Positions 2,464 to 27,878 of a stretch of DNA of 28,138 bases are shown in pieces (positions within the stretch are counted from its first letter, which is position 1; each line of letters opens with the position of its first letter). A model generated the notes under the pieces. That model saw only the letters and a program-made list of their open reading frames with translations. It ran no database searches and was not told where the DNA came from. This stretch comes from Heterotrichella gracilis. Lineage: Eukaryota; Sar; Xanthophyceae; Tribonematales; Xanthonemataceae. The stretch spans positions 1 to 28,138 of the forward strand of contig JAULBX010028549.1 in NCBI GenBank assembly GCA_032358255.1. Direction: 5' to 3'. The position numbers and the translations under genes are program-made.

Positions 2464-5400
2464 ATGATGTCCTCGACCGCCCATCAGAGGGACGTGGAGC
2501 TGGCTAATGAGTATGGAGACGTGGAGCTTTCAAACGCACGTGATGACAAAGAAGACCTGCCATTGACGACCGAAGGTGATGCTGCCACGCTGATCTCTGT
2601 AGCATTTTTTCCAAGTTGTAGACTTAAATTATGCAACACTAAGCAGTCGTGGGTACTGCGCATGCATGCATTGTGGGACCTTCATGGTCTGGTGACCCCA
2701 ACCTAAGGACATACCCCAACAAGGTCGTGCCACCTGCTGCACCCTCCCTCCACTGTCACGCCTGTACTGACCAAAGTTCAATCCTTTCCTGGTGCAATCA
2801 ACTTCCACCAACATGTCCCACAAGGGACATGGCAAGTGCGCACGCTATTTCCCCTCCTGCCATTGGTGGGTCTTGTGTACCTCCTGCCCTTTGTGCTCTG
2901 GCAACTAAGTGCTTACCCTCCTGTTTGTGCTGAGGGGTGCCTCCTGGCGAGGGGCGGGTGGGCTGTCCTCCGCCCTGGAGAGCTATATGCCGCCCCGCTA
3001 GGGTTTAGGTTTACGGTTTGCCCTGAGCCGGACCCTCCCACCCTTTGCAGGGGCGGGTGAGCCCTCCTCCGCCTGGAGAGCTGTTTCCCTTCCCGCTAGG
3101 GTTTAGGTCTAGGGTTTGTGCTGAACCGGACTGTCCCCACCCCCTTGCAGGCGCAGGTGAGCTCTCCTCCGCCCTGGAGAGCTATGTGCTGCCCCGCTCA
3201 GGCAAAGGCGCCATGTCAGGCTCCCGCAAGCTGTGCATCATCATCACAATCATCGCAGCAGTTATGCTCTCAGTGGCAGTGGCAGCAGCCATAGCCCTCA
3301 ACCACACCACCTCCTCGGCCTCCTCCCCCTCCTCCGCCCCTGCCACCACCTCCACCACCGCCTCGAACATCACAGACTCCCTTGCCCCCCCTACGGAGCA
3401 AGAAATGTCAAACTCCACCCGCTTCAACATCACCTTTCTGCACACCAACGACATACACGCCAGGTGGGTGCACCCAGAGACCCGCTAAGCCATTCTGCTG
3501 CAACCCAACAAAAATAATATATATTATTACTATTTACAATTTTAAAGTCTGCAAAGGAAGGCAGGGCAGGTTCATGACACACGAATAATGGTCAAAGCCT
3601 TTTACTCACTCCATGCTGGCTGGTTTTGTGCACACACCAGGATTGAACCCGCGTCCTCCCTGTTTGGCCCCTGCCCCGACGGCAAGGAGGCAGAGTGCTT
3701 CGGAGGGTTTGCTAGGGTTTACGGGGCGGTGCAGCACGAGATCGACCTGGCTATCGGCCACGATGTGGTGCTGCTGGATGCGGGGGATGTGACCTCGGGC
3801 ACGCTGTGGGACTACATCTACAAGGGCCAGGAGCACCCTGTCTTCCAGAACTACATCGGCTACGAGGCAATGGTGGGTTGCTGTAGGCAAGGGTGTGGGG
3901 GTGCTTTACAGCCACAATATGCATTTTCAGTGACAAATACCCATCATGGGTGCTGCCTTGTGGGTGCTTTTACCAGCAGTAAATACAGCCATGCATCCCG
4001 CATCCTTCGCACGCTGCTGCACATTACATTTAAGCCTTGCGCGTGGAAACCGTGCATGGAGATGCCACACGGCATGCGCATGTTGGGGATTATGGCCTGC
4101 TTACCCTTTGCATCGGACACCACCCACTTACTGTACCACACCCAACCCCTACAGACCATCGGCAACCACGAGTTTGACAACGGCATCCAGTCCTTCATGA
4201 ATTACACCCAGGCTGTCAACTTCACCCTGCTCAGCGCCAACATGGATGCAAGCGCGTACCCAGACCTGGCTGCCAAGGTCAAGCCCTACTACATACGCAG
4301 GCAAGCAAACACCCTAAGATATGAACCCTAGAGCCACATGAACTCTTTGACTCAAGATCATGCCATATTACAAGAGCACAAATTCCACATTTAGCAACGT
4401 AGGAATCACGGGCTGGCTCAGCAGGACAGTATACCATTCACCTCTCCATACATATACTTCTTTTAACATGGCATCTCCGTTTTTTACCCATTTTACGTTG
4501 CCACAACCAACAAATGGTGTAAGCAGTACCAGCACCGCACTGCCTGGCGCCGCATGCACATGCCTTGCTGCGCACCTGGCTGCATTGCTGGGAATCGTCA
4601 ACCAAGGCTGGTCTTATCCCCTGCAGCGTGGCGGGCGGCAAGCGCATGGGCATTATCGGTGTGGCTACTGCGGACCAGTTGTATGTAAATGTACTAACAA
4701 CAGCATATTTTATCTGCAGCGTGGCGGGTGGCAAGCGCATGGGCGTCATCGGAGTGACTACAGCGGACCGCTTTGTATTCTCCCCGCGCCTACCCAAGGA
4801 TGTGCTGCTGGGGGATGTGACTGAGGCTGTGCAGGGGGCGGCTTCGGAGCTGATCGGGATGGGTGTGGACATGATTGTGGCGCTCACGCACATAGGTGGG
4901 AGGGTTGATATTGAGCAGAATCATGATCATATTCATGTTCATCAATGGCATATTTTATTGTGATTGGGATTCCCATATAATTGTGGCAAAGCTGATCGAG
5001 ATGCGGGTGGAAGAGCTTGTGATTGAACTGGACATCATCATCGGAGGCTATTCGCACACTCTGGCAACACCCTAAACCCTACACCGCATAACTTGTATTC
5101 GTTTCTTTGTAGGTGTGGAGGATGACATCCTGCTTGCCCAGGCAGTGCCGGAGCTGGACCTCATCATCATCGAGGGCCACTCGCACACCATGCTCTTCAC
5201 AGGCACCACCCAAAACCATAAACTAAACCCTAAACTGCGGCAACTTTACCTCCCCCGTGGAGAACAACAGCATCCTTGCGCAGGTCGCGCCAAGGCTGAC
5301 ATACGGTACCCCGCCTTCTCATTTTCCTGCAGGTGTGGAGGACGACATCCTGCTTGCCCAAGCAGTGCCCGAGCTGGACCTCATTATCGGCGGCCACTCG

Positions 5401-8383
5401 CACACCATGCTATACACGGGAACCACCCCGGACCTGCTGGTGGGAGTCGCCGAGAGCGACGAGGCCGCCTACAACTACCCCCACTTTGTGCGCAACCAGG
5501 TCACCGGCAAGAGCATACCCATAGTACAGGCCATGTGGGGGTCCAGGTGAGCGCAAGCTAGGGTCTAGGGTTGTAAGTTTAGGGTTTCAGGGTATTGGAT
5601 ACTGCAACCAGGTCACCGGCAAGAGCATACCCATCGTACAGGCCATGTGGGGGTCCAGGTGAGCATGGGCTAGGGTTTAGGGTTTAGGATTTTAGGTTAT
5701 GGGGTACTGCAACCAGGTCACCGGCAAGAGCATACCCATTGTGCAGGCCATGTGGGGGTCCAGGTGAGCGCGGGGTAGGGTCTAGGGTTTCAGCAGGGGA
5801 ATTAGGGTGTTGAATATTGCCCCGTATGGACAGTACTGCTAGCAGCGCAGCCCCTCCCCCCTACTTATTGGCGGTTTGCCAGGTCTTTTTATTATAGTTT
5901 TCCAGATGTTCTTTAAGTTGTCCTTTAATGGGCATTTTCCTAGTTTTAGCTGGAAAAGCCTGGAAAGATAATGGAATATCAACCATTGCCTTCCAAAGTG
6001 GCTGGAAAGGTCTGGAAATTGATGTCACCCCCTTTTCCAAAATGGCTGGAAAGGTCTGGAAATTGATGTCACCCCCTTTTCCAAAATAGCTGGAAAGGCC
6101 TGGAAATCGATGTCACCCCCTTTTCCAAAATAGCTGGAAAGGCCTGGAAATCGATGTCACCCCCTTTTCCAAAGTGGCTGGAAAGGCCTGGAAAGCGATG
6201 TCACCCCCTTTCCAAAGTGGCTGGAAAGGCCTGGAAAGCGATGTCACCCCCTTTTCCAAAGTGGCTGGAAAGGCCTGGAAAGCGATGTCACCCCCTTTTC
6301 CAAAATGGCTGGAAAGGCCTGGAAAGCGATGTCACCCCCTTTTCCAAAGTGGCTGGAGGTCTGGAAAGCGATGTCACCCCCTTTTCCAAAATGGCTGGAA
6401 AGGCCTGGAAATCGATGTCACCCCCTTTTCCAAAGTGGCTGGAAAGGTCTGGAAATCGATGTCACCCCCTTTTCCAAAATGGCTGGAATGGTCTGGAAAT
6501 CGATGTCACCCCCTTTTCCAGCCCGTTTAAGTGAAGGGGTTTTATAACGACCATTGCACTTTTCTCTTGATGCGCAACCAGGGTACTCGGAACAACATCC
6601 CGGTTGTGCAGGCCAGGTGGGGGGCAATATAACATAACATGTAGGGTCCCGCCTCCAGACATTTTCCCTGCACCACTTCACCCCCTTCCTGCCTCCTAGC
6701 CCCTCGGTGTTACCTTCTTGTTGCCACCTCTGAACCCCCTCGTTTCCCTTCCCAATCACAGGTACCTGGGCAGCCTCCAAACCACCTGGGACAAAGAAGG
6801 CAACCTGATCGAAGCCCATGGCAACCCTGTGCTCCTGGGGGGTCTGGACTCCACCAACTACGTCACATCAGACCCTACTCTTACGAGTGTCATCGACAGT
6901 AAGCTCGCCCCCTTGGAGGCCGCCCGGGCCCGGGTGGTGGGGGTGTCAGAGGTGTCGTTCATGGTGGCGGGGGCGGGCAGCGGGGAGACCAATCTTGGGG
7001 ATATGATCGGGGATGCCATGGCGTGGTATGTGTCGGACCAGCTGAATCTGGTGGAGCAGTACCCCGACCTGCCGCTCATCGCCATACACAACTCAGGTGG
7101 GTCAAGGGCTGGGTTGCAGCTGGATGAGGGGATGTTCGTGGGGATATCCAACAGTGACCCGCAGGACCATACAGAGGGGTTTTCCTAGTGCAAAGCTCCT
7201 GTTGCATGTGGGTTTCTGCGAGGGATGGGTAGCCAAAATCATTATTATCCATGCACACTGTTATTAAATATCGGATGTAATGATTTTTTCAGCAGAAAGA
7301 CCAAAAATGAAGAGTTATTGGGATACAAGAATTGAATTGTGATTTGAACTGTAAGATCATTATAAATTGATTGTACTGAAGCCGTTGATATTTATATTTT
7401 GTAAATATAAAATGCTAAAATGCCTCTTCCCCCTCTTTTTCCAGGCGGCATGCGCGCCTCCATCTCCTCCGGCAACATCACCTACGAGGAGGTGGTCACC
7501 GTGCTGCCATTTGGAAACTGGCTGGTGGTCAAGCAGGTGACTGGGCAGCAGGTGCTGGCGGCGCTGGAAAACGCTGTCAGCTACAAGATGGCGCAGGTGA
7601 GGCAGAGGGAACCCTATAAACCCTAGGCAGCTGGAAACCCTAACCTGCATGTGGGAATGTCGTCAGCTACAAGATGGCGCAGGTGAGGGAACCCTTGAAA
7701 CCCTAGGCAGCTGAAACCTAACTGTCGGTTGGAACCAGTGCCAATGGCGCTGGGAAACGCTGTCAGCTACAAGATGGCGCAGGTGAGGGAACTCCTGAAA
7801 CCCTAATATGTTGGACCAGTGCTGGCGCCGCTGAAGCACGCAGTCTGGTGGCGCAGATTTGGGCCTGAAACATATAAAATGTTTTCTTCGTGACCCCCAT
7901 TGAACACCCTGCTCGCTACTTGGGCTCATGCAATTCACCTCACCTTTGGCACCCGCATTGGCCTCAAATTCACCACTTTGCCCCTATTGGACACTCCTAT
8001 TGGCTGCAATTTAATCCTTCTTTCCCCCTTGCCAGGTGGCGCACATGCGGTTCAGCTTCGACCCCACCGCCATAGCCAAGGAGCGGGTCGTGCGGGCGGA
8101 GGTGCACTCCCCCTCCTCACAACAAAAGGAAGCATTCATCCCCCTGGCCCCCGCCAGCGACTACCTCCTAGCCACCAATAATTTCGTGGCGGCAGGGGGG
8201 GATGGGTTCTTGTCGATAGAGGAGGGGGAGACGCTGCTGGACAGCTCAAAGCCGATAGATGAGGTGGTGGCGGGGTACTTGAGGTCGATTTCCCCTGTGG
8301 CGGAATACAAGGTTGAGGGGCGGATTGTCAACTGCAAGGTTGCCCCTGCTGCGGCACTGTGTGTACCAACGACCACCGGGTGA
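2464..8383 (+). CDS. Membrane-anchored 5'-nucleotidase / UshA-type metallophosphoesterase
   Basis: Nine exons join in phase to a 675-residue protein: 2464-2575, 3151-3463, 3641-3872, 4155-4300, 4720-4895, 5333-5546, 6762-7096, 7445-7596 and 8036-8383. All introns are GT-AG except intron 4, which starts GC (4301). An acidic N-terminus is followed by one hydrophobic segment at about residues 65-88, then a Ser/Thr/Ala-rich linker. This suggests a type II membrane anchor with the catalytic domain outside the cytosol. The two-domain nucleotidase then follows. Metal ligands are HTNDIHAR (D138, H140), DAGD (188-191), GNHEFDNG (N223, H224), LTHIG and GGHSH (H348, H350). The C-terminal substrate domain has NSGGMR (508-513), VLPFGN and AAGGDGF (about 614). 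The family hydrolyses nucleoside monophosphates or UDP-sugars, often for phosphate or purine scavenging. No GPI-type tail is visible. Several exon edges are duplicated in the introns (separate entries). Exon 1 is the least certain exon, supported by phase and by the need for an N-terminus. A start at 2467 is equally possible. Confidence 0.88.
2944..3200 (+). repeat. Degenerate tandem copies of nucleotidase exon 2 left edge
   Basis: Three successive segments, starting near 2944, 3046 and 3146, share the pattern of acceptor-like CAG, a GCGGGTGAG-type block, a TCCTCCGCC block, GGAGAGCT and a CCCGCT block. The first two run into a TAGGGTTTAGG telomere-like stretch. The third continues as the true coding exon, which starts at 3151. 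The spacing is about 100 bp. The copies overlap the end of intron 1 and have accumulated substitutions, so they look like decayed duplicates of the exon 2 acceptor region. Confidence 0.75.
4627..4680 (+). repeat. 54-nt duplicate of nucleotidase exon 5 start (possible cassette exon)
   Basis: The segment repeats the first 54 nt of exon 5 (4720 onward). It encodes [17 protein letters not shown], against [17 protein letters not shown] in the true exon. It has its own TGCAG acceptor (4622-4626) and a good GTATGT donor at 4681. Its length is a multiple of three and it enters and leaves in the same phase as the real junction. Splicing it in would therefore add 18 residues without breaking the frame. 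It is probably skipped, because it duplicates a core beta-strand of the enzyme. Confidence 0.7.
4989..5302 (+). repeat. Decayed copies of nucleotidase exon 6 start
   Basis: Before the true exon 6 (5333), at least two related pieces occur. The piece at 5113-5208 follows a TTGTAG acceptor and encodes [19 protein letters not shown] followed by EGHSH, so one glycine of the GGHSH metal-binding motif is altered. The piece at about 5257-5300 encodes a weaker [14 protein letters not shown] version. A third, weaker resemblance lies at about 4989-5060. CCCTAAA telomere-like motifs sit between them (5069-5083 and 5223-5236). I chose the 5333 copy because it alone continues through the rest of the domain to a phased donor. 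Confidence 0.72.
5490..5763 (+). repeat. Three tandem copies of nucleotidase exon 6 end with splice donor
   Basis: The 3' edge of exon 6 (donor after 5546) is repeated almost exactly with donors after 5658 and 5763. Each copy keeps the coding block that reads [18 protein letters not shown] and a GTGAGC donor. Each is followed by a TAGGGTTTAGGG-like stretch. The period is 112 then 105 bp. A fourth, diverged copy lies at about 6567-6618 without a proper donor. All copies would give the same reading frame and protein end if the second or third donor were paired with a matching acceptor. Confidence 0.88.
5949..6522 (+). repeat. Minisatellite, about 12 copies of a 44-bp unit, in nucleotidase intron 6
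   Basis: From about 6000 to 6522 a 44-bp unit repeats about twelve times with few substitutions. Its landmarks are TGGCTGGAAAGGCCTGGAAA, GCGATGTCA and CCCCCTTTTCCAAA. One unit is missing a T and one is missing a few bases near 6357. A diverged thirteenth copy lies at 5949-5999. Open frames through it are artefacts of the repeat and differ in all three frames. It sits between two exons of an otherwise intact gene and is spliced out with intron 6. Confidence 0.95.
7575..7855 (+). repeat. Tandem copies of nucleotidase exon 8 end with splice donor
   Basis: The last part of exon 8 (donor after 7596) recurs with donors after 7682 and 7782. Each copy keeps the block encoding VSYKMAQ and a GTGAGG donor, followed by an ACCCT(A)AA spacer. 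The period is 86 then 100 bp. A weaker copy ends near 7855 in GGCGCAG. The true exon is the first copy, since it alone is continuous with the upstream coding sequence. Confidence 0.85.
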
Positions 8384-9824
8384 AGGGGATTGTGGTATTT
8401 TATCCGCAGGGGGTGGATTTGGGAAACAGTTATTTTTTTCCAACAATAGCAATGTATGGGGACCCTGCAGGGTAATAATGTAATGAAGGGGGGTGATTTA
8501 CTGGGGAAATTGGGCAACACGGAATGGAGGGGGACATGAAGTGACTGGCAGGGTTTACTGGGTGCATCATTAGTGCATGGAGTGGGGGACCCCGGGGGCG
8601 CTTTCGCGATCATGATATTCTGACTTTTGTGTTTTGGGTTAGTATTTTAATATGGGGTATGCGCGGCTCGCTGCTGTTTTCCTGAACTGAGTTCTGAACA
8701 CTGTCTTGCGCTTGCTTTTGATCCGTACTCTAGCGGTAGTCGAGCCACCTGTGAAGGGCCGGTGCCAGGCTGCAGTGGCATGTCATCGGACGTTGATTGA
8801 TTGAGGTGATGGGAGCTGCTGATCTGGTTGCGGAGCTTGTTTCCGTTCCTGAAAACTATGGGCTACACTATTGCATTGTACACGCCATGCCACATGGCAT
8901 GTGTCTGTCTGTTAGTGAGAAGGATTGTGGGCTGCAGCCGACCGTTGACCCAATTTTGAAATGCACAATGCCACACCTCCCTTGACACCCTGTAGGTAGC
9001 TACCTATGATGCCATTGGGTGGTTCAACTGACCTCCATCAGATTATGACAAAGTAACAGTACTTGTGGTAACATCGCCATAGACCCTAGACTAAGTAGGG
9101 TTCCATCCACAAGGCATTCTTGGTATTAGAAAATCTCACGGGAGTGAACTCCGCTCTGTACTCATTTGAAATCGGCGCTGGCTCTTTAGGCTTGAAGTTT
9201 GGCATGCCTTATCACGACCTGCTTCTCACTCTGACACAGTCACGGTGCAATGAAGCAGTGTGTCACACTCTGAACGTGTCGTTATGACAGAAGCCATGTA
9301 TTCTATTACCTCAGTTAACCAGTATGGAACCTCTGAGTCAGACTGAGTGCGAGTTGGGTCACACGGTGACCAATGCACGATAGGCAGCAACGCTATTGGA
9401 CTTGTGTCCAGGTGCGCATACAATCACAAGCCCCTTGCAAACATCCAGGATGTATGCTACACCAGCACTGATGCATATTATGAGAGTCTCAGTCTGTCTG
9501 ACATGGTTGAACAATTACAGGCAGCTCGCCAGACTCGGAGGTCCCAAGTCTCAAAGCACCACTTCGAGGAGGCTCCAGCTGGGTGCACATCATCAGAGGA
9601 CTGCCTACTAACCTCAAGTGGCAGGGCCAGTTTGGAAAAAAACGTGAAGGTAGAGGAGCCTTTATGACTCTTTAAAACTACTAGACACTGTGCGTACTGT
9701 CACAGAGTCCGTCATTGCCAAGATGTGCTGCACTGACACCTGTTCTGATCAGGCCCTGTAATGCACATCAAATGGCTGCAAGTTTATACCCCTATCTCCC
9801 ACTGCAGTGACACAAGATCTCAGC
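8384..9824. other. Intergenic region, no gene recognised
   Basis: It contains the nucleotidase 3' UTR and presumably the F-box gene promoter. An open frame of 106 codons at 9347-9667 (+) shows no domain, signal or family resemblance. A CTGCAG at 9802-9807, preceded by pyrimidines, could be an acceptor, so a 5' untranslated or coding exon of the F-box gene could lie here. Confidence 0.45.
8479..8483 (+). terminator. Putative TGTAA polyadenylation signal of the nucleotidase gene
   Basis: TGTAA is the common green-algal polyadenylation signal. This one lies about 95 nt after the TGA at 8381-8383, a reasonable 3' UTR length. The pentamer is short, so chance occurrence cannot be excluded. Confidence 0.4.
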
Positions 9825-12973: not shown

Positions 12974-15900
12974 TCACCCCAGCGTCTCCCCCCCCGCACA
13001 CCCCATCTCCTCCGGCGTCAGCACCACACTCTCCACATTGTCCCTCAGCCCCACCAGCTCGCTATATAGGAGGCTGCCAGGGTCAGCGAACTGCACCGCA
13101 CAAGTTGATCAGTCAGCTACACATGCACATTCCATGTCCAGGACCAGCACAAACAGCAAAATTAGATGATCCTTCACTTATGCCCATGCCTGTGCCAAGC
13201 AGTTCAGTCGTAATGTTGTGTGTACCACATGTTGATCTTGCGAAGTGTATTGGTACCATGTGTTGATCATGGCATAATTGGATGTCCTACTGGGTCAAAT
13301 TGGCCTATGATAGCATGTCGATGGCCTTACCTGCACCGCGTTGCGTGCCCCATACTCCACAAACGTCTTGGCACCCGGGCCCACGTCATGCACTGGCAGC
13401 AGCAGCTCACCCTCTGCGGTGAATGAGGTGTCCACTATGTGGGTGGTGTTGCCGCGCTGCTTGAGCGCCTTCAGGTCCTGCGCGGACCAAAATAGGCAGA
13501 TGTTTCCTATTGTTCCAGCGATTGTCAGACACAAGCAAACATCATCAGTGATTGTTCATGCCGCGTTTTTCAACTATGTCAGCATTTTACGCTCTGCATT
13601 GAATGAGGTGTTCACCATGTGGATGGTGTTGCCGCGCTGCCGCAGGCATAAGTTACAACGCTCAAGATCCAGTGCGGATCAAACTCTTTTGTGATATTGT
13701 ACTTATTTTTGAATGATATTTATCTTCAATTATATGTGCGGCACCAGATGGCAATGATACGGTAGTCGATGCCATAGTGGCATTGATTTTTTCATGTTTG
13801 CAAAAAACTCTGGAACTTATTATTTGTGCTGATTTTCAAATCAATGGGTCAGTCCAAAACCACCCAATAGAGGTTGTCATTGGATATTACGCTCTCTGTT
13901 TACAACCCTAGTGTTGACTGATCTCATTCTGCATGTGCCACCCCCACCTGAATAAACTGCAGCACCTCGCACCCCAGCTGCTGCTTCAGGGGCCCCTCCT
14001 CTGCCCTGCCATGCACCAGCACAGCCAGTGGCAGCCACATGCTGACGTGGCGGGTGAAGCCAACCATGCCGCCCACGATGCGGGGAACTGCACGGCACAC
14101 AATATCATCCAGCTTTGGCCTTAGGTTTTGGGCTTTAGGGTCAAGTTCATTTAATTGGCATGGGTCAATGTGTGCTGTTGACGCAACAGAACTGTTGTCC
14201 AGAACACGAAAATCCCCAAATCCCCAGCGGCACGCCATTGGCCCAACTTGCCATGCATGCTGCCCATCACCCCGGACTGGCTCAAGATGCAATATGGCAA
14301 GCTGAGTAGTGGGTATTAGTAGTGCATATCATTTAGCAAAATTTCTTACAACCTCCCCATGCCCTCCTTGTCCCATCCCCAGCCCGCTCACCTGCCGCAG
14401 CCCTAGGGGACGTCCACAGCGCCGCATGCCTGTCGTAGCCCAGTGCCCAGGGGTCCCACAGGTTGACCACATGCCCGGGCCACACTGATCGCGCATAGGT
14501 GATCATGGAGGGGGGGCTGGCAGCATACAGGGCCTCCATCAGGCTGCATGGTCAAGGGACGGGGGTTAGGGTTTAGGGTTTAGGATTTAGGGCTTAGGGT
14601 TTAGGGCCTCCATCAGGCTGCGCAGACAAGGGAAGGTGTGAAGTGGGATACGTTTAGGGTAAAGGGTACACAAAGTGGGGAGAGTAAGGGGCGACTAAAG
14701 TTGGGGTTGACGAAGGGTGCATATTGTGTTTCTACAGGCAGATTGATAGCAGGGCATATTGTTGGTGTGGATGGTGTGCAGCTGAGGGAGTCAAGGGGAT
14801 TTCGTTTTACATGGTTTGGGATACAAGGCATGGGTACCACACCTGAACAGTCATGACACCATCATGTGGAGCTGCGCCACTTTGCTGAAGCATGATTTTA
14901 GGCTTCAGGGTTTTGGGCATGTGCACCCTACCTGAACTGTTAGGGCACCATCTCATGGAACTGCGCCTCGTTGCTAAAGAAGGAAGTGCTGTTCCCATCC
15001 AGAGGTTGCTGGAACCACTGGTCTCGCCAAAAATCGTAGTGCGCATGCTCGCCCCAGGGGTAGAGCCCAGCGGGCGTGAGGGTATTCTCTGCCCAATAGG
15101 CAATGGCTGCGTCCGCCTCGCTGGCATATGTGGAGTTGCCTGTGGTGGGCATGATGGGGTGAAATCACACGGTGCTAAATTTCTGGCCCCGTATGCAATT
15201 TATTCCTATCCATGCAATGGGCTTTATAAGTCTACGCCAATTGGCACCATGTGGCGTTGGCAACATTGCATGCATGTTCTGTAATAACATACAAAATATG
15301 TCACTGTCACGCATTTGACCCCAACGATGCCTGGAATGGTAATGCCAGTTTGAAATACTTTGTTTTGATCGAGTTTATATGCACCCCATGCTGCACCCAC
15401 CTGTACGCAGTGCCTTCAATGCATTTAAAAATGATTTATTTCCAACAACTTACAATGCAGTAACTGTATTTCGGTACACCCAGTGCGCCCCACCTGTCAC
15501 GTTTGCCAGTGACCACAACATGTAGTACAGGTCCTGGTCCTGGAGCAGGTTGGCCCCACACCAGATGGAGCGGTGGGGGCCGCCCTTGTTGCCTGCAGGG
15601 GGGAAGCACGGGACACTGATGGACTGTGTGTATGTGTGTCACCTGTGGCCGGTTTCTTTCCTTGTGTGTGCACATTGTCTTGACGGTTGGAGGGGTCAGC
15701 CCCCCGCGCTCCCTTGTTTAAACACGTGCATGTGGGGTGTGCGCATTCATGATGCAATGAGCGCCAGCCGGGCTGGACCACATACGTTGACTTGCGAATA
15801 CAAGGCGCGCAGGGCCCAATGAATACGCAGGGAGGGTGGAGAATGCAGACCATGTGCCTGACCAGGGGTGTACAATCTAAACCAGGAATCCTGGCTTGTA

Positions 15901-17709
15901 TTTTAGCACCCCTGGTCTGATGCAAATTGTTTACCTGATGCGAATGTGCATAACGCAGATTTGCCATGGCCATGTGCTTGAGACTTGCAACTGACCTGGG
16001 CAGTACATCCTGGGGAAGTTGGCAGGCCCATAGTCTTTGCCCTCCCCAAACTGGATATCAGGCAGTGTGGGCGGGTCTCCACACACCAGTATGCCAGCAA
16101 ACAGTGGTGACTGGACCGCTCCATATGTGTCCCTGCCATGTAGGAGCATGGTGTCTGCATACTGGACCACCAGGGGCAGCAAGTGGTCAAAACCTGCGCA
16201 TAGTCAACCGAGTAACTTCAATTGTTTTGGCAATTTGGCAACAGCCAGAATTCGCCTCCAGCCTTGCACACCAGTGGCACTAAACAGTCATTTGCTGGCA
16301 ATTATGCTAACCAGGGGCAGCAAGTTGTCAAAACCTGCACACACAGCAGCCTGCTGGTTCAAGGTTGGAGCGTGCGTGCATCAGAGCCTGAGCGCAATGG
16401 TTGGAGCCTGTATGCGTCTTTCACTCTTGGGACAAAATTCCCAAGATACAAAGCGTGCATGGGAAACAAATGCCAACTGGCAGATCCCTGCCAATTGTGC
16501 AACTGGCCTGGAAGGCTGAAAGCAACCTGACTGTATATACAGCCAGAGTGCCCTCAACCATCAGAGCCAGTCGCATACTGGCAGCCAAGCAGGTATGATA
16601 TTCCCACGCAGTGGAGGTGGGGATGGGAGGCGTGATGGTCGTCTGGGGATAGGATTTATGCCTTACATCACAGAACACGCACTTACGCACACCTGTGAGG
16701 TTTGAAGCGGTGGCCTTCTGCCACAGCCCCAGCAGAGAGCTCATGAGCGTATTCCCTCCTGCAGTGGACCAGTAGAAATCTGGCGCGACGCTCCCATTGG
16801 GGAAGATCACGGGGCGATCCAGCGCGCGAGGCAAGCCGCAAGACCCCGTGGGCGTGATGAAAAACTCGATCGCCTCCTCGGCGAGTGGGAGGGCCCTGGG
16901 GATCAGGTCCTGGGATTTCGCCTTCCTGGTCAGGGATGAGATTGGGTATGCGTACTGCTCTGGGATCCTTCCGGGGTTCATGTCGTTCCAGCGCAGGGGC
17001 CGGTCCTGGATGCCCACGCTGCCTGCGCACGGTGAAGTTTATGAATACATAATCAGCCCTGTGTAAGAGTACATAATCAGGTGCGTGAAACCCCTGTACA
17101 GAGAGGGTGTGGGCTGTAACAAGACAGGACTGCATGGCGCAAGGCATGTATGGCAGAGTGCTAATCTGGTTGATTGCTGGAACGCCGTTGCAATGCAGCT
17201 AATTGCAGCATGTAACCTAACTACAGGTGTACTCATCATGAAATTGATTTTTTTGTTTATTTACTCTCCGTGATGCAGTGGCGTATCTGCGATCACCGCA
17301 TGCACACCATGCATTTTGTATTATAAGATGAAACACAGCATGCTGCAGCCCATGCTGTCCAGAGCACACTTACTGCTTGGTGCAGGCACGCTGGACTGAA
17401 CCTTCCCATCTTGTCCATTCCCGCCATCCACGCTGCTTGCAACCCCATCCCCTTGCTCGGGGACCCCCGAATCAGCACTCTGACCACCCAAAGCGCCTGC
17501 ACCCCCCATGTTGTCCACGGATGGGTCACTCACAGCACTGTCCAGCTGCTCCAGGGTCATCCTCTCCCCTTTGTTGTACTCCGCGTACCACCCCATGGCA
17601 TGAGCGAACTCCAGGCTCAGTGCTTGCACGCTGAGGGGGTCCAAGCTGACACCTTGATGGGTGGCAGAAGCCAGGTGTTGATCTGGAATGGCATTGCCAG
17701 GTCTTGGCC
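12974..17709 (-). CDS. Uncharacterised multi-exon protein, six-hairpin glycosidase/lyase-like (5' end not found)
   Basis: Nine minus-strand exons join in phase: 17709-17374, 17022-16693, 16193-15996, 15592-15494, 15139-14932, 14543-14392, 14087-13948, 13477-13331 and 13090-12974 (TGA). They encode about 574 residues and lack a start. Landmarks in order are FAHAMGWYAEYNKGERM, PDFYWSTAGGNTLMSSLL, YADTMLLHGRDTYGAVQSPL, MYCPGNKGGPHRSIW, LTPAGLYPWGEHAHYDFWRD, NEAQFHE and WDPWALGYDRHAALW. The spacing of YAD..HGRDTYG..PLF, WGEH..(Y/W)DF, HE and DRHA resembles secreted (alpha/alpha)6-barrel proteins of planctomycete-type bacteria that are often loosely called pectate lyases. I recall this from memory and could not search. 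Several N-x-S/T sites fit secretion. The fifth exon has an in-frame TAA at 14942-14940, just before its donor, so the gene may be broken (see findings). The 17709 boundary is chosen by a pyrimidine-rich acceptor and phase. Confidence 0.65.
13591..13683 (-). repeat. Decayed copy of an exon start (minus-strand gene, exon 13331-13477)
   Basis: The segment repeats the first part of exon 13477-13331 together with its acceptor region (about 13420-13490). The blocks GAATGAGGTGT, CACCATGTGG and GGTGTTGCCGCGCTGC on the plus strand are nearly unchanged. The end corresponding to the acceptor has diverged and contains extra bases. It lies in the intron directly upstream of the real exon. Confidence 0.8.
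14567..14630. repeat. Telomere-like TTTAGGG run plus copy of an exon start
   Basis: From about 14567 to 14606 there are about six TTTAGGG-like heptamers, some with one substitution. They are followed at 14605-14630 by a copy of 14532-14556, the first bases of exon 14543-14392 with its acceptor. The copy differs at only a few positions near the acceptor. The telomere-like run lies exactly between the real exon edge and its copy. Confidence 0.85.
14838..14892 (-). repeat. Decayed copy of an exon end (minus-strand gene, exon 14932-15139)
   Basis: On the minus strand this repeats the last about 45 nt of exon 15139-14932 with a GTGTGG donor. It reads roughly AGC-AA-GTGGCGCAG-CTCCA-CATGATGGTG, then the same TTCAG ending as the true exon. 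It has a TGA (14853-14851) at the position of the TAA in the real exon. The spacing of the two donors is about 90 bp. Confidence 0.75.
15860..15917. repeat. 58-nt hairpin in an intron of the minus-strand gene
   Basis: GACCAGGGGTG at 15860 is the exact complement of CACCCCTGGTC ending at 15917. An inner CCAGG/CCTGG pair flanks the centre. The region between is only partly complementary. It sits about 80 nt from the exon edge at 15996. It may be a small foldback element or simply a structured intron segment. Confidence 0.5.
16309..16340 (-). repeat. Copy of an exon start (minus-strand gene, exon 15996-16193)
   Basis: This repeats 16167-16200, the first bases of exon 16193-15996 plus its acceptor. 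The plus-strand blocks ACCAGGGGCAGCAAGT and GTCAAAACCTGC are unchanged. It lies about 142 bp into the upstream intron. Confidence 0.8.
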
Positions 17710-20583: not shown

Positions 20584-23500
20584 ATGACTACCACCATGCA
20601 GCGTGCACACACCTCCATGGCAGCAGAAAGCTCCTTCATCGGGCGCAGCGCAACGACAAAGCCCAGCGTGAGCAGCCATGGCCGCCCATCACTCCCCAGC
20701 TCCACCTACCGCGTCAGGCATCGCAGCTCCCACCCCATCAGGGCAGCTGCAGAGACGGAAGCCTCGCCCAGCGAGATGCTGGACCGGGCTTCCAGCAAGA
20801 AGGACGACGCTGCCTTTGACCCACGCGCCTTCCGCCGGTCCCTGAACCAAACGGGGAGGTACACCCGCCGGACCGTCAACGACCCCGACAGCCTCTCCCT
20901 GATGGAGGAGCATGGGGTTGGGTACTCCTCCACTGGCCTGGTGGCCCAGATGCGGGAGCAGGACAACACCTGGAAGCAGGGGGACATCACAGTGAAGCTG
21001 GCCGAGGCCTATGGGTTCTGCTGGGGCGTGGAGCGGGCTGTTCAGATGGCGTACGAGGCCCGTAAGGCTTACCCAGGCCAACGGCTGCACATCACGAACG
21101 AGATCATCCACAACCCAAGTGTCAACCAGCGGCTGAAGGAGATGGACGTGATGTTCATCGAGGAGGCGGAGACCAAGGACTTCAGCAACGTGAAGGAGGG
21201 GGACGTGGTCATCCTGCCTGCCTTTGGGGCCTCAGTACAGGTAGGCTGGGGGCAGTCCTCATCCCAGGTCTCACCTGGGGTGCATCACATGTGAACATGC
21301 TGGTGGCATGGCCTTAGAGTGACCAGTGATGGTCTGTGTGTCCAATGGCACCGTAAATTGTGAGCGCAATGCAGTCAGTATCCTTGTCGGGGGGACGCCC
21401 AATCTGCAGCAGCACTTCCACAGTCCACCTGCCGGCGTGCTCAGCAGTGGTACCATACCAAAACGACGTGTTCCCACACCTTCAGTAACGCACTGCACCT
21501 TTGCATAAACCACTCCAACCTTATAGGAAAAAAGCACAATGCAACAGGGTGCACTCCACCCCACCCACCATACACACACCCAACCCCACCCCACCGCACA
21601 CCACACACACATGCCTCCCTCCTCCCGCAGGAGATGAAGCTGCTGAACGACCGGGGCGTGCAGATCGTGGACACCACCTGCCCCTGGGTGGCCAAGGTGT
21701 GGAACGCGGTCGACACCCACACCCGCAAGGGCCACACCTCCGTCATCCACGGCAAGTGGGCGCACGAGGAGACGATCGCCACCGCCTCCTTCGCGGGCAC
21801 CTTTGTCATCGTCAAGGACCTCAAGGAGGCCCAGTATGTGTGCGACTACATCCTCAACGGGGGCGACAAGGCGGAGTTCCTGGCCAAGTTTGTGGACGCT
21901 GTTTCGCCTGGCTTTGACCCGGATGTGGATTTGGAGCGCGTGGGGCTGGCCAACCAGACCACCATGCTTAAGGGCGAGACAGAGGAAATTGGCAAGATGC
22001 TGGAGCGCACCATGATGCGCAAGTATGGGCCCGCCAAGCTGAACGAGCACATCCTGGTGATGGACACCATCTGCGACGCAACGCAGGTGGGTGCGGGTGG
22101 GGTGCGGTAGGGGGCCGCTTGCAGGTATCACAGCGCAGCAGGTTGCATGGCTTGGAGGTATCAAGACCTGCGTTGCACTGCGTCGCATGGTCTCATCCAT
22201 GCGATAGTCCTTATGGGACTGCCGAATTGTGCCAATCGATAGTCTAGAGCACGTTTTGGTCATGGACACCATCTGCGACGCAAGGCAGGTGGGTGCAGGG
22301 GGGGGGTGGGAAGTGGGGCGGACATGCACTGGAGGGGCGTATCAGTAGCTGCATCTGCTGCAGGGCTGTGCTGCAGGGCGGGGCGTATCAGTAGCTGCAT
22401 TGCAATGCGCTGCATGGCCCGATCCCCCGCATTGGCTTCATACGGCTGCCAGCTTGTGCCAATTCCCAGTGACGGGGTTTTGGTGCTGCATGCAATTTGC
22501 AGCAAATGCCGCGCCCGGATGCCAGGCGCAGACCCCGATGCCACTGCCATTCAATCTCACCCATGCACATGCTGATGACGCACACCACATCCCTTCCGCC
22601 ACATCGCCGCAACTCACCATCACATATCACACCCTGGGCGCCATATCACATTCCCATCCATGCAACATCTTCTACCGCTAGCGCCTCATCTGCACCCACC
22701 CACCCCCTCCCTTCCCCTCTATAGGAGCGCCAGGACGCTGTGTACGAGATGGTTGGCAAGCAGGAGGTGCCGCAGGAGAAGCTGGACATGCTCATTGTGG
22801 TTGGGGGGTTCAACTCATCAAACACAAGGTGAGCGGGCAGACTGTACACCCTAAACTCGATTTTGCCGTACACCCTAATGAACACTAAAGAGAAGCCGGA
22901 CATGCTCATTGTGGTGGGGGGGTTTAACTCATCAAACACAAGGCAGGGTTAGGGTCACCAGTTTTAATGTTTGAATGAAATCTCTAATGTACCCTACACC
23001 CTAGCTAATTGTGGTGGGGAGGGTTCAACCGGTCAAACACAAGGTGAGTGGCAGACCTTCACTCTATGCCCTAGACCCTTATGTATCACATACCCCAATT
23101 TTACCCTTAAGCTGGACATGCTCATTGTGGTGGTGGGGTTCAACTTGTCAAACACAAGGTGAGCTGGCAGACCGTACACCCTAATACACCTTAACTTACA
23201 CCCTCATCATCTCGCACGTCTTACCTTTACCCTTGGACATGGTCATGGTGGTGGGGGGTCAATTCGTCAAGGACCAGATCGGGCTGGGGTTTGCATCTGA
23301 GGTTTCTGAGGAGTTGAAACCTTGCTATGTTCCTCCAGCGTACCTTGTGGGTGATCATGTGTGCATATTGATTGGCTGGGTCCCATCTTACCAGTGACAC
23401 CCGCACTTGCCGTTGTTAACTCGCGGGGGTGGTGGCAGGTCTGACCAACCAACCAACCCGTGTGTTTAAAATTGCACGTGCGGATGCAACTAGCAGGATG

Positions 23501-25594
23501 GGGTCCAGCCAGCCACCATGTGTGCCAATACTGTCATACTTACTGGCCTATAAATTTGTGGGTGGGTGTGTGTGGTGGGGGGTGTAGGGGGGGGGGGGGT
23601 ATTTAGTACCCTGTTCTTTTGTAATGAAACGTGTCCTATCCCTCAATCTGTCTTACAATGTTGCGGTCCATTAGGGCCTCCGCTATTCTATATCCCCCCT
23701 CACCCTCGTCCCTTCAGCCCTTGCGGCAGAGCGGCTTCATTGAGTGGCAATGACAAAAACCAACAGTGGCTCACTGACGCCCAATCTGGTGCAGGTGCTG
23801 CAGGCACACGCGCCATGGATCTCTGATGCATGGGCTACCAGACCCCAACGCTTGATTGCAATTAGCCTGGCAATGGCCTGATGCCCCACATCCTACCACA
23901 GTGCCTCTTGTGTTCCCTGACACACCCTTCCCCCCTGCCCCCGCAGTCATCTGCAGGAGATCGGCGAGCTGAAGGGAGTGCCCTCCTTCTGGGTGGACTC
24001 TGCTGCCCGCATCGACGTCGCGGCCAACAAGGTTAGTTAGTTAGTTAGTTACATGCATTCCAGCAAAATAGCCAGATCAGCAGTCAGTCTTGCACATGCG
24101 GCGCCACGCAGCTCTTTCCTGGCACTGTTTGAACCATCTATTGATCCCACGCGGAGTAGGTTAGCCCACGTGGCCCTAGGCTTACCTACCCGCTTTGCCC
24201 CCTCTACCCTACCAAACACCATACATTTAGGAACCCTATCGTCTGATAAACGTCCTAAATGTCCCAACCAGCTTAGCCTAATGTCCCTGAGTTTGTCACT
24301 TATGCTTTGTTGCCCACACTTGCTAAGGAGAACGGAGATAGGGGTGTGCACCAACCTTGAAACCCCACACAGGGCCCTTAAACAGTCATTTTGAAAAACC
24401 TCTAATCTAGCAAGTTGAGGCTGCCTAATAGCCCAGCTGTCAGCCCCATATAAAAGGGTTGTCAGCACCACTGCACTAAAACCCGGCATCTTGTGCGCAG
24501 ACTGATGCGCCTGTTATGCCACAAAACCCCTCTGAGCGACGCAAAGGCGCCACCTGCACGGCTCAAGCGGTGTCATATCTCCGCGTCTAAAGTATTATCA
24601 TTAGTAAAAACACTTCCTAGACAAGAAAACTTGTCCACAACTTCCACCTGCTGCCCATCTAATACAACCACCGGCAGCTCCTGTTCAGTTTTTACTACTA
24701 CTAGGATCTTGGTCTTAGGGACGCTAACTAATAAACCCACTTTTTAAAAATCACAAACACCTGAGAAAGCGCTGTTGCCACCTCCGACTGGGATTCACAA
24801 ACCAGGGTGATGTCATCTGCATACATAATCAAGAAAACGATACGCTGTAAATTATCCTTAACGGTACGAGACGAGGCCCTATACAACTGGCCATCTACCT
24901 TGTAAGCTATGGCAATACCTTTGGTCCTGCACAACCTCAAGCACTTGCCTTGCCACCGTGTCTACCAACTAAATTGAAAAGAGAAGGAGCTAAAACGCAA
25001 CCCTGCTTCAAACCGGTGCATATCTGAAAGGGGGGGGAAATGTCCCCAAAGGCACGGACCACACACGTCGTATCAAGGTGCAGCTCAGGCCAACAAGGTG
25101 ACTTCAGTTAAATATGTTTCTCAGTTTCTTTTTTTTGAGATCTGTACATTTTGTCCTGTCATGCATAGTTCTGCATTTTCACAAATGAGTTATAAGTTCA
25201 GCATAAATAACCGGATAAACAACCGGATTAATACCCTGATTTAGGTTTAAAATTGAAAAAAATGGATAATATAATGAATAACAAAAATTGGCAGGGAAAT
25301 GGCAGGGATTTGTAGTTATTCATTATATTATTCATTTATTTTGCAATAAACAGTAAATAATACATACATTTGATGTAGGTGACCCACAAGCTTGCGCATG
25401 GCGAGCTGGTGGTGACCGACAACTGGATCAGCGACAGGCCCCTGGTGATCGGGGTGACGTCGGGGGCGTCCACACCCGACAAGGCTGTGGAGGATGTGCT
25501 TGACCGCATCTTCAAGATCAAGGACCCCAGCTTCAGCGGGATTGCGCCCAAGCAGACCTCGGTGGGCAAGCCGAGCCACGGGGAGGAGCACTGA
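20584..25594 (+). CDS. ispH (HDR): 4-hydroxy-3-methylbut-2-enyl diphosphate reductase, plastid (IspH/HDR)
   Basis: Five exons, 20584-21240, 21631-22086, 22725-22828, 23947-24031 and 25379-25594, join in phase to 505 residues ending in TGA. The first about 60 residues are rich in Ser, Thr, Arg and Ala, ending near IRAAAE, a typical chloroplast transit peptide. The catalytic body has the three [4Fe-4S] cysteines: [11 protein letters not shown] (C146), [12 protein letters not shown] (C236) and DTICDATQ (C367). It also has [25 protein letters not shown], a plant-type insertion around [29 protein letters not shown], and VTSGASTP near the end. The enzyme reduces HMBPP to IPP and DMAPP, the last step of the MEP isoprenoid pathway in plastids, using ferredoxin. 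Length and C-terminus match plant and algal HDR. Intron 4 carries an antisense LINE. The edges of exons 2 and 3 and the coding end of exon 5 are duplicated nearby. In-frame codons exist upstream to 20473, but ATG 20584 gives the better transit peptide. Confidence 0.96.
22057..22290 (+). repeat. Duplicate of ispH exon 2 end with splice donor
   Basis: The last about 30 nt of exon 2, encoding MDTICDATQ with the third cluster cysteine and a GTGGGTG donor, recur at 22259-22288. The copy reads MDTICDARQ and also has a GTGGGTG donor. The spacing is about 202 bp. The intronic sequence after each copy is also related (GTATCA and TTGCATGG blocks), so a roughly 200-bp exon-intron segment was duplicated. 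Confidence 0.85.
22785..23275 (+). repeat. Five-unit tandem array of ispH exon 3 end
   Basis: The true exon 3 end (donor after 22828) is followed by four progressively altered copies ending near 22942, 23043, 23158 and about 23270. The period is 101-115 bp. Copies 1 to 3 keep GGTT(C/T)AAC, TCAAACACAAG and a donor-like end (GCAGGG, GTGAGT and GTGAGC). The fourth has lost it. Spacers contain TACACCCTAA motifs. The first unit is the functional exon, because it alone is continuous with upstream coding sequence. Copies 2 and 3 carry changed residues in the conserved GGFNSSNT motif. Confidence 0.88.
24022..24033 (+). repeat. Target-site duplication, left copy (spans ispH exon 4/intron 4 junction)
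   Basis: GGCCAACAAGGT at 24022-24033 is repeated exactly at 25088-25099, on either side of the LINE fragment. The next bases on both outer sides differ. Ten of the twelve bases are the end of exon 4 and the last two are the GT of the donor. Confidence 0.85.
24034..25087 (-). mobile_element. 5'-truncated LINE (non-LTR retrotransposon) fragment, antisense in ispH intron 4
   Basis: Read on the minus strand, this encodes the C-terminal half of a LINE reverse transcriptase and the region after it. [15 protein letters not shown] lies at about 25015-24971. The catalytic YADD lies at 24823-24812 within [25 protein letters not shown] follows. An intact 146-codon stretch at 24489-24049 then holds LLYGADSW and [12 protein letters not shown], typical of the post-RT part of these elements. 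Frameshifts separate these pieces, so the copy is dead. Its own TAA (24051-24049) is followed directly by a (CTAA)n tail running into the target-site duplication. A simple-repeat 3' tail, a 5' truncation and a 12-bp duplication are the signature of target-primed reverse transcription. Confidence 0.92.
25088..25099 (+). repeat. Target-site duplication, right copy
   Basis: Exact match to 24022-24033. It keeps the pre-insertion arrangement AACAAG|GTGACT, showing that the original ispH intron 4 began with GTGACT and was about 280 nt long before the LINE landed. Confidence 0.85.
25265..25332. repeat. AT-rich inverted repeat (16-17-bp arms) in ispH intron 4
   Basis: TAATATAATGAATAAC at 25267-25282 is the exact reverse complement of 25315-25330, with a 32-nt loop containing two GGCAGGGA blocks. 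It lies about 50 nt before the acceptor at 25377-25378. It is probably a folded intron segment or the remnant of a small element. Confidence 0.6.
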
Positions 25595-25924
25595 GCAGGG
25601 GGCAGCTGGAGATGGGTGTGGTAGGAAGTGTTCAGCCGGAAGCGTTCAATCTGGACACGTATCAGATTGGGGCTTTTACATGTTCAGCGGGACTCTTTGC
25701 AAGCAGACCTCGGTGGGCAAGCCCAGCCACGGGGAGGAGCACTGAGCAGGGGGCAGTTGCGGATTGGCGTGGTTGGAAATTGGGTGTGGTTGGGTCAAGC
25801 TGTGGTTAAAATCAGCTGGAAGTGTTCAATCTGGACACGTATCAGATTGGGGGTTTCCGTTTTCAGCGGGATCGCGCCCAAGCAAACGTCGGTGGGCAAG
25901 CCCAACCCCGGGGAGGAGCATTGA
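25539..25924 (+). repeat. Three tandem copies of the ispH C-terminal coding end
   Basis: The true end (about 25530-25594) encodes [20 protein letters not shown] and TGA. Two copies follow: 25683-25745 encodes [20 protein letters not shown] and TGA, and 25862-25924 encodes [20 protein letters not shown] and TGA. Linkers share a TTCAATCTGGACACGTATC block. The periods are 151 and 179 bp. Each copy begins after a pyrimidine-containing TTCAG that could act as an acceptor. The copies keep an open frame and a stop, which is more than random decay would preserve if they were old. Confidence 0.9.
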
Positions 25925-27062
25925 GTAGAAGGGGCGTGGTGTCTGTAGGGCGTTAGATACCCTGTGGTAGGGTGGACCTGTGGGTCGGTTGTTGTGGCCG
26001 TAAGATGAGGTTTTGCTGGTCCAGGGAAGTGCATATGGGGCGGTATTGGCTGCGCAGCATGCACTGAAATCAGATGAGGGCTCCATGGAAAGTGTCATGG
26101 GGATGATTGGCTGTGCTGCCGGCGGACAAGGGGATTGGGATGGGGATTTGGCATTCATGGACAGTTTGTAGGGTATTTTTACAGACCACATGCGGGTGTG
26201 GCTTGCTCGCGAATTGGTGGCTCGCCAATTGGTTACTGCTGTGATCAATGCATGCCATGGAGTGGCAGTACTGCAGCTTTTGTACCTGGGAATGGTCCAT
26301 CAATATTAGGATCGCAGGCTGGGACTGTTGATGACATGATACCATGTAGCTTTACAATATGACGATATGCTAAGTAGTACGCCTTTATTGCAATATGCAG
26401 AGTGCAGCAGTTGGCAGTGCAATGTGGGTGCATATGCCCGCTTGCAACAGGTAATTTCTTGAAAGAAATACCGTCCCCGTGGCTGGGCGCAGCATGGTAT
26501 AAAATTGCCTGAAAGCACGTTATCAACAATTATATTATTGGGAACGAGATGTGCTATGGACTGCATGCACGCCGCTGCCACCCGCGCCGCACTACCGAGC
26601 GCTCAGAAAATTTCCTTAAGGAGGCGCGTGCAATTGTCTACTGAGACTACCGTAGTCACTACTGATTTTAATTGAGTCACGGCCGGTCTGCCAATGCAAG
26701 CCAACATTTTCTAGTTTGCATATGACCCCACCAGGCCCAAAAAATTGAATGAAAGCAGGGCAACAAATCTGCGATGCTGGCAGTCCCCAGCATGTGGCGC
26801 ATCCCACACCAACACCCTGGTGGACAGAAGACATCCCACTGGGCAAATCCTATCCCTGGGAAAGGATTGGGATAAACATGGCAGGCACAGTGCCATGGCA
26901 GGAGGGAACTGCTTGGTGTCGTTTGTGCATTGCAGCTTGCCAAGGCGAATTGCTAGCCTGGCTGCATTGCTGGCGCGCATGTATGAAACTGGCTACATGC
27001 TGGGGAAAACAATTCCACAAATCTACCTATCTACCTACCCACTTACCATGCCATACCCCACC
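25925..27062. other. Convergent intergenic region, no gene recognised
   Basis: This lies between the 3' ends of ispH (+) and the coiled-coil gene (-). Overlapping open frames on both strands at 26745-27324 reflect base composition and the neighbouring exon. No repeat, RNA gene or element was recognised apart from an ordinary CTACCTATCTACCTAC run near 27021-27036. Confidence 0.5.
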
Positions 27063-27878
27063 TCACCCCTCCACCTTGTCCTCCCCAGCAATGTACTGCC
27101 AGAAGCTGTACCCCTTGCGCTCCCCCGCCTTGCCACCACCTTTACCCCCCTCCGCAGCCAGATTGGCCCGAGCAGCCTCCATGTATCGCCGCTGCAGCTC
27201 CGCACCCCGCGCCCTCTCGGTCTCTAGCTCCGCCCCTAGTCGCTGCACCTCTTCCACCAGGGCAAGCAGCTCAAGGTCACGGTCGGAGACAGCCACGCCC
27301 CCTGCATGGGAGGGTTTGGGTTAGGGTTTGGAATAGGGTTTTGGGTATGTCATGATGCTGGGCAGATCAAGGTCCACTAAGGCAAGCAGCTAGATGTTCT
27401 TGGTCCGGGATAGCCACGCCGACCGATATCTGAGGTACAGGCTAGGATTTGATTGAGCATCAGGATTTGGGCCATGATAATACACCTTGAGCGTGATTGC
27501 TAGGGTTCAGGGAGGGTTTCCTGGGTTGGGCCCATTGCATCAGCAGCTTAGAATTGAGCCGGTACATGTGCACCATCTCAAGTCACCCCACCTGGCAGCT
27601 CAAAACCAGAGTCCCGCTCGCCGCCGCCCTCCCCACCCCTCTCCTCCGCCTCCACCCCTTCAGCCCCCTCCGCCACCCCACCCACAGCCTCCGCCTCCCT
27701 TCGCCGCAGCGCCTCCACCCTCGCAGCGATGGCCGACTGCTGCGCCTGCAGCCTGGCAGCTTCCAGCTCAGCGCCGAGCTGGTCTGCCAGTGCTGACTTG
27801 GCATTAAGTTGCTGCGTGAGCTCCTGGTGTGTGGCCATTAACTGCGCAAGGGTGGCCTGGGCCTCGGTGCACTGGGAC
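27063..27878 (-). CDS. Coiled-coil protein, last two exons (5' part outside window)
   Basis: The minus-strand exons 27878-27592 and 27301-27063 (TGA) join in phase (P|G junction) to about 174 residues. The first is a long Ala/Gln/Leu/Glu helix with heptad spacing (QLMATHQELTQQL, ADQLGAELEAARLQAQQ), then a Glu/Gly-rich linker. The second resumes the coil (LVEEVQRLGAELETERARG) and ends GYSFWQYIAGEDKVEG. No enzyme motif or membrane segment is visible. The acceptor at 27879-27881 shows that more exons lie upstream, but those at 27900-28138 could not be recognised. It could be a structural or tethering protein. I do not recognise the family. Confidence 0.68.
27302..27421. repeat. Telomere-like spacer and decayed copy of coiled-coil exon start
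   Basis: After the exon edge at 27301, TTTGGGTTAGGGTTTGG-like sequence runs to about 27345. At 27371-27420 a copy of the exon start (27253-27300) appears, recognisable by GGCAAGCAGCT and AGCCACGCC blocks with several substitutions between. This is the same arrangement as in the other genes. Confidence 0.7.

Follow-up and report, generated by a model that had tools for sequence, protein, structure and literature searches.

The edges of exons in Heterotrichella gracilis recur, together with their splice sites, as direct copies that lie mostly on the intron side of the boundary and are frequently held apart by a filler resembling the telomere repeat (TTTAGGG/CCCTAAA). These arrays probably record the repair of staggered breaks, in which both ends were filled in, a filler that is often telomere-like was added and units were occasionally re-duplicated afterwards. 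The window is a single contig of 28,138 nucleotides (JAULBX010028549.1) from an assembly of 68.5 Mb in 903 contigs. To it were added 25 stretches of 10 kb from arbitrary contigs of the same assembly, from which three bacterial-like loci (L002, L016 and L024, with a GC content of 0.34-0.38, ORFs of more than 1200 aa and 0 arrays) were excluded; the final set thus comprises 23 loci of 248,138 bp, namely the window and 22 arbitrary 10-kb stretches. Arrays were detected as ungapped direct repeats with a spacing of 25-500 and a score of at least 18 (an early count that included L002 and L016 stood at 75 arrays, 40 of them with telomere 7-mers). Gene models were obtained with an unsupervised gene finder built for the analysis, which predicted 318 internal introns in the 23 loci. 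Against the hand-set exons of ispH it recovered the first three correctly but set the exon 4 end and the exon 5 start wrongly, and tiny false exons were predicted inside several arrays; the exon lists of ispH and the nucleotidase gene of the window were therefore edited by hand.

The nucleotidase gene encodes a 5'-nucleotidase with matches to the PF00149 (Metallophos) and PF02872 (5_nucleotid_C) domains, and its edited exons give a 674-aa open frame when spliced at the copy attached to the exon body; a first set of exons interrupted the frame, which is restored by a GC-AG donor at 4301 picked for that reason. Similarly, the edited exons of the IspH/LytB gene (PF02401) yield a 505-aa open frame when spliced at the exon-body copy, with the junctions CDATQ-ERQDAV and NSSNT-SHLQEI lying within segments that can be aligned to IspH proteins of solved structure. 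As both frames are open with the exon-body copy, the functional copy in these genes is the first one at a donor and the last one at an acceptor, and the others are spare. The first-pass annotation had proposed that the process shifts splice boundaries, which finds no support in ispH and the nucleotidase: the exon-body copy keeps the frame and the conserved protein, and the spares look freely decaying. The minus-strand gene shows a match to Pectate_lyase_2 (PF06917, 31.5 bits against a cut-off of 26.6) in its first 347 aa, which alone were scanned because the joined exons did not read on, the frame being lost after ~347 aa with stops beyond.

At all 13 of the sites named in the first-pass annotation (Table 1) the local alignment of the exon edge or gene end with the neighbouring stretch outscores every one of 500 shuffles, the scores being 38-138 and the shuffle maxima 23-30, with pieces hand-chosen around the earlier coordinates. 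The duplications reported there are hence real, and their grading from near-identical to barely recognisable is evident in identities that run from 60/61 down to 49/64 and 37/48. An unprompted repeat search picks up most of these sites, and TRF a few. Telomere 7-mers (permutations of TTTAGGG/CCCTAAA) are present in 7 of the 12 named sites detected by the scan, with a single 7-mer in one. Two sites were only partly as described. At the 3' end of ispH the duplication stands, while the copied piece is not a splice edge but the terminal coding stretch including the stop codon, repeated in the 3' flank; at 13400-13460 / 13580-13640 of the minus-strand gene the duplication likewise stands, while the copied piece ends ~17 nt before the predicted acceptor (13477/13478) and leaves the splice site out.

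Table 1. Duplicated edges and related features in the window; fractions are identical over aligned positions
Feature	Coordinates	Strand	Copies and filler
Nucleotidase, acceptor-type array	2950..3198	+	~2.5 units of 98 bp, exon 5' edge with acceptor; last copy 3149-3198 is exon, other copies upstream and intronic; 3149-3198 vs 2950-2999, 44/50; G-rich telomere-like filler ~2999-3020, ~3095-3119
Nucleotidase, acceptor-type pair	4621..4769	+	4714-4769 exon, 4621-4676 intron, 50/56; no telomere 7-mer
Nucleotidase, acceptor-type array	5033..5428	+	5328-5428 exon; 5108-5211 intron, 91/104; weaker third piece 5033-5059; C-rich telomere-like filler ~5069-5090, 5211-5237
Nucleotidase, donor-type array	5492..5790	+	5492-5552 exon end plus GT; 5604-5664; ~5709-5769; first two copies 60/61; G-rich telomere-like filler 5553-5603, 5665-5708
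Nucleotidase, donor-type array	7560..7845	+	7560-7602 exon; ~7660-7688; 7746-7788; degenerate 7819-7845; 7560-7602 vs 7746-7788, 42/43; C-rich telomere-like filler separates copies
Minus-strand gene, acceptor side	13400..13640	-	exon piece 13400-13460, upstream-intron copy 13580-13640, 52/61
Minus-strand gene, acceptor edge	14529..14636	-	14529-14562 vs 14603-14636, 29/34; spacer 14563-14602 is 40 nt of nearly pure TTTAGGG-type repeat
Minus-strand gene, donor edge	14827..14979	-	14916-14979 vs 14827-14890, 49/64
Minus-strand gene, acceptor edge	16169..16341	-	16169-16200 vs 16310-16341, 30/32; no telomere 7-mer
ispH, donor-type pair	22045..22308	+	22045-22104 exon 2 end, 22247-22308, 54/62; no telomere 7-mer; exon junction within conserved IspH stretch
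ispH, donor-type array	22779..23258	+	exon 3 end 22779-22850; downstream copies from ~22893, 23018, 23109, 23235, some partial; CCCTAAA-like filler
ispH, 3' end with stop codon	25532..25957	+	three copies: 25532-25600, 25683-25751, ~25862-25930; interleaved 45-bp repeat 25632-25676 / 25812-25856
Weak pair	27253..27420	-	27253-27299 / 27373-27420, 37/48; score 38, shuffle maximum 26; G-rich telomere-like filler ~27311-27345 (by eye); under the threshold of the genome-sample scan
Predicted gene	27075-28138		gene prediction

Across the sample, 89 arrays were found in 20 of the 23 loci, or about one per 2.8 kb of the 248 kb, and the earlier expectation of a genome-wide process is correct as far as sampled. 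Intergenic arrays and in-frame coding repeats are included in this number, the classes being 53 edge, 12 with an exon copy and an intron copy, 11 intron, 7 intergenic, 4 exon, and 2 with exon and intergenic copies. A separate minisatellite, the 44-bp array at 5991-6520 of the window, is also counted among the 89. Chance is ruled out as a cause, as order-4 Markov simulations of the 23 loci contained 0 arrays in three runs, and local dinucleotide shuffles, one for each of 21 sources in an earlier run, gave 0 matches. The copies are 18-138 nt long (median 46, 90th percentile 90 nt), with spacers of none to 254 nt (median 60 nt). Arrays overlap 87 of the 318 predicted introns and supply 12,795 of 96,024 predicted intron bases, in line with the proposal that introns are enlarged in this way.

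The first-pass annotation had suggested checking exon-edge copies against shuffled exon-intron pairings, and a comparison with displaced boundaries over the 248 kb favours a genuine tie to splice sites: a copy spans a predicted splice boundary in 47 of the 89 arrays, against 21.9 +/- 3.7 (maximum 32 in 300 shifts) for circularly shifted boundaries. When each array is represented by its best pair, 32 have the partner copy towards the intron, 5 towards the exon and 8 in both directions, and 44 span no boundary. Tallied over every boundary and copy, 48 incidences are directed inward, into the intron, and 16 outward, part of which may be the gene finder's false exons; a separate tally of 52 inward and 3 outward was set aside as biased by pair picking. 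Among the arrays that are at least 95% identical, 16 span an edge, 2 are intronic, 3 intergenic and 2 exonic.

This excess need not originate in the breaks themselves. Duplications might arise at random, those in exons being purged by selection, and might have struck when ancestral introns were short, a combination that is compatible with staggered-break repair and that we regard as a serious possibility, if short of probable. With all introns at 60-80 nt, uniform placement would yield edge fractions of 0.81-0.72, near the 53/64 observed; when the 12 arrays with an exon and an intron copy are taken as non-edge, the observed 53/76 is nearly explained by an edge fraction of 0.6, corresponding to ~100-nt introns (p 0.05). 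However, among the 245 array-free introns the median length is 264 nt and the expected edge fraction only 0.29, from which the 16:2 ratio of edge to intron-only arrays at 95% identity or more departs strongly (p 2e-7). Further, young copies hold more exon than intron, in 24/32 cases at 90% identity or more and 11/16 at 95% or more. The breakage itself thus probably favours splice edges, though the bias would fade to almost nothing if introns were 60-80 nt long when hit.

A feature missed in the first-pass annotation is the telomeric (TTTAGGG) DNA between the copies. TTTAGGG is taken as the telomere repeat because runs of it stand at the very starts of two contigs, C70 and C140. Its dimers number 5,629 genome-wide (2845+2784; overlapping matches, terminal runs counted) against 5 (2+3) for the reversed motif, and the TTAGGG dimer is rarer, with 476 (256+220) against 58 (29+29) for its control. 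Away from contig ends, tracts of this repeat constitute short interstitial telomeric sequences, and in the sample 119 of 139 such tracts lie within predicted introns. Telomere 7-mers occur at 11.5 per kb of intron, against 2.3 for intergenic and 0.4 for exonic sequence; a 7-mer is present in 136 of the 318 introns (45.6 expected from shuffles), more often in introns with arrays (59/87) than in those free of them (77/231; p 6e-8). Within the 56 single-pair arrays the 7-mers are concentrated between the copies, the densities per kb being 26.8 in spacers, 3.3 in copies, and 3.9 upstream and 9.6 downstream in flanks of equal length. Conversely, direct repeats flank 47 of 136 telomere tracts (three of the 139 lacked full flanks and were omitted), where permuted flank pairings predict 0.5. 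Of the 73 fillers of at least 18 nt, 28 are telomere-like at p<=0.02 (1.5 expected), as are 13 of 80 intronic stretches beside arrays, also above expectation; 16 of the 89 arrays have no filler of that length. Both points weigh against staggered-break repair with telomeric filler, as do the 45 of 73 fillers that are not telomere-like at that threshold; telomeric DNA is thus a frequent, though not a necessary, ingredient. The cleanest case, L003:4902-4957 / 4999-5054, has 56 identical nt across a predicted donor and a telomere-like filler of 41 nt, restricted to the space between the copies and already degenerate although the copies are identical.

Most spacers with telomere 7-mers carry a single orientation: 14 are G-only, 18 C-only and 3 of both kinds. 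Genome-wide, the donor AGGTGAG is followed at 3-30 nt by TTTAGGG 608 times (reversed control 9) and by CCCTAAA 399 times (reversed control 12), and is preceded by TTTAGGG 134 times (reversed control 20). In introns, 237 G-rich 7-mers fall in the first 60 nt and 26 in the last 60, whereas the C-rich ones show no 5' crowding (173 and 155). G-rich tracts, which carry TTTAG|G, might hence be purged near acceptors.

Could the telomere-like tract be merely a normal component of these introns, which was already in place when ordinary slippage or unequal exchange duplicated the exon edge in tandem? The motif is repeated along with the copy in the multi-copy arrays at 5492-5790 of the window, L019:2076-2501 and L009:5681-5926; plain tandem duplication would be expected to place the motif inside the unit in this way, which counts against staggered-break repair, and the 7-mers in 77 of 231 array-free introns point in the same direction. 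Nevertheless, this is unlikely, given the concentration of the motif between the copies of single pairs relative to both flanks and the 47 of 136 tracts with direct repeats on both sides. A second step of ordinary tandem duplication is required for the larger arrays (three to five units), in some of which the unit includes the motif.

A mobile element carrying telomere-like sequence, such as a telomere-attached retroelement or an introner, with a long (~50 nt) target-site duplication, would likewise produce a copy-insert-copy structure with inserts mostly of a single motif orientation. It is very unlikely, as the introns share little except the telomere motif: among 316 telomere-masked introns there are 9 cross-hits, 3 of them from one dispersed repeat and 2 from pieces of one array, and no whole-intron family was recovered in the 248 kb. 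In addition, two non-telomeric fillers, from L005 and L006, have one genome location each, their own, no second copy of the queried stretches was found elsewhere in the assembly, and the sizes of both spacers and copies are highly variable. An introner or transposon family was accordingly rejected, which agrees with the first-pass view that no known transposon type is involved. Staggered-break repair that fills in both ends would be expected to leave just such copies, separated by filler that belongs to no common family.

The spare copies bear the marks of decay. In 48 pairs the mismatches between exon and spare copy at codon positions 1, 2 and 3 amount to 5.9, 8.7 and 15.2%, as expected of a spare copy free of constraint beside an exon in which most changes are silent; a coding function for the spares was rejected on this pattern. 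GT or AG is retained in 44 of the 48 intron-side copies, so that decoy sites persist. That selection keeps them as decoys or alternative sites is nonetheless highly improbable, since a copy identity of ~90% would by itself preserve the dinucleotide in roughly 80% of cases (an estimate) and the codon-position mismatches fit free decay beside a constrained exon.

A break-repair origin, which the first-pass annotation had offered, beside recombination, as its own conjecture, remains the best fit and is now backed by the telomeric filler. Under a staggered-break mechanism two nearby nicks on opposite strands would create a staggered break, whose overhang of ~25-90 nt would be filled in at both ends and so duplicated, while filler DNA, telomere-like in over a third of cases, would be caught between the two copies before joining. 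Where the duplicate straddles a splice site, splicing would stay at the copy attached to the exon body, and the insert and the spare copy would be absorbed by the intron, which would grow by ~50-200 bp. Homology between the copies could then let some units expand to three to five per array, with the spare copies decaying. A simple polar process of telomerase extending broken 3' ends was rejected, as G-type filler is nearer the left copy in 6/12 cases and C-type nearer the right copy in 6/15, with no polarity. Nor would faithful telomerase synthesis give the degenerate filler between identical copies in L003; together these observations render capture or error-prone copying of telomere-like DNA at least as likely a source as telomerase extension. 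Domain matches to TERT and to Ku are present in the assembly, which also contains bacterial-like contigs, and Ku is found in bacteria too; a search of it for STN1 gave no match, and the control matches were likewise absent.

Each ingredient of this process is known. In the account of PMC7215372, break-repair insertion of telomeric repeats covers primates, rodents and horse; the horse insertions are at times accompanied by a direct target duplication, with 3 of 66 loci showing a simple duplication and 2 more a duplication with deletion and addition (its Table 5), and 31% of human interstitial telomeric sequences are in introns, which fits chance. The telomere-repeat insert and occasional target duplication are thus common to both systems, whereas in the mammals so described duplication is rare and the intron share random, in contrast to the repeat-flanked and largely intronic tracts found here. 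Tandem duplications at breaks with 3' overhangs are attributed in PMC8355091 to CST-guided Pol alpha-primase, which also acts in telomere fill-in, and patch-mediated repair in rice is described by Vaughn and Bennetzen 2014 (as cited in PMC8355091 and PMC7407515). These duplications resemble the present ones in being element-free and tens of bp long beside the break, and the copies here are adjacent, direct and mostly under ~100 bp; the differences are that filler mostly separates the copies, that it is often telomere-like, and that the arrays are tied to splice edges. In the light of telomeric inserts at mammalian breaks and of the duplications made by CST-Pol alpha-primase, telomere DNA would be an unsurprising filler.

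Routes of intron gain, among them tandem genomic duplication of AGGT and break repair, are reviewed in PMC3443670; they share with the present arrays a local duplication around AG|GT and direct repeats, but here introns are enlarged rather than created. An in-register repeat of the exon end at the intron end occurs in 4 of the 318 introns (identity above 0.7 across 20 nt; expectation 0.15), which is above chance but rare, and the creation of introns by tandem duplication was therefore rejected as a general cause. Introners, too, are recurrent insertions that affect introns, with target-site duplications of 3-9 bp according to PMC9860276; the duplications here are several times longer, and no common element sequence is present in the sample. 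In the literature searched, which leaves most subscription journals outside its coverage, telomere-filled exon-edge duplications were not reported. What appears to be new, relative to that literature, is the combination: splice edges duplicated around telomere filler, with more than a quarter of the sampled introns overlapping an array.

A broader reading, tentative and on balance doubtful, is that exon-intron boundaries in this lineage are preferred sites of staggered breaks, that the telomere machinery handles these breaks through fill-in and telomere-like filler, and that such abortive telomere healing is a main engine of intron growth genome-wide. More immediately, spare splice sites adjoin many real ones, which is a warning for gene finders. 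The filler process may also explain why interstitial telomere tracts in the sample sit so predominantly in introns. Intron growth is mostly inferred from old, eroded sequence, whereas here a single genome preserves copies that range from 100% identity to the verge of recognition, and the telomere-like filler serves as a molecular tag pointing to the repair route. The connection of intron size with break repair and telomere proteins would thereby become open to direct test. In this intron-rich genome, the copy-filler-copy arrays show one route by which introns can grow.

Maintenance of an open reading frame in the nucleotidase gene of the window requires a GC-AG intron, with the donor GCAAGC at position 4301 and the preceding exon ending at 4300. 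Within an intron of the same gene lies a minisatellite comprising 12 copies of a 44-bp unit (5991-6520), which lies beside the donor-type array of exon-edge repeats at 5492-5790; the minisatellite itself does not duplicate an exon. The last intron of ispH contains a retroelement-like remnant on the minus strand (24052-24940), in which a 70-aa ORF matches RVT_1 at 22.9 bits, under the cut-off of 29.6, and an adjacent 146-aa ORF gave no Pfam match. The contig ends in a 44-nt run composed almost entirely of C (28095-28138). Three 10-kb sample loci of the same assembly (L002, L016 and L024, from contigs C1, C43 and C100) are bacterial-looking, with a GC content of 0.34-0.38 and ORFs exceeding 1200 aa, and would represent contamination or associated bacteria.

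Intron-versus-intron comparison across the sampled loci recovered a dispersed repeat of ~100-130 bp, common to three introns at 79-85% identity. Four predicted introns, against 0.15 expected, carry at their 3' end an in-register likeness to the end of the upstream exon, with at least 0.75 identity over 20 nt. Intron gain by tandem duplication would leave such a likeness.

Introns of the sample loci with the dispersed repeat or with in-register likeness to the upstream exon end
Feature	Locus	Positions	Strand
Dispersed repeat	L019	3055-3317	
Dispersed repeat	L021	1227-1490	
Dispersed repeat	L026	5395-5941	
Exon-end likeness	L010	4484-4717	+
Exon-end likeness	L017	3250-3503	+
Exon-end likeness	L019	3055-3317	-
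Exon-end likeness	L020	6369-6668	-
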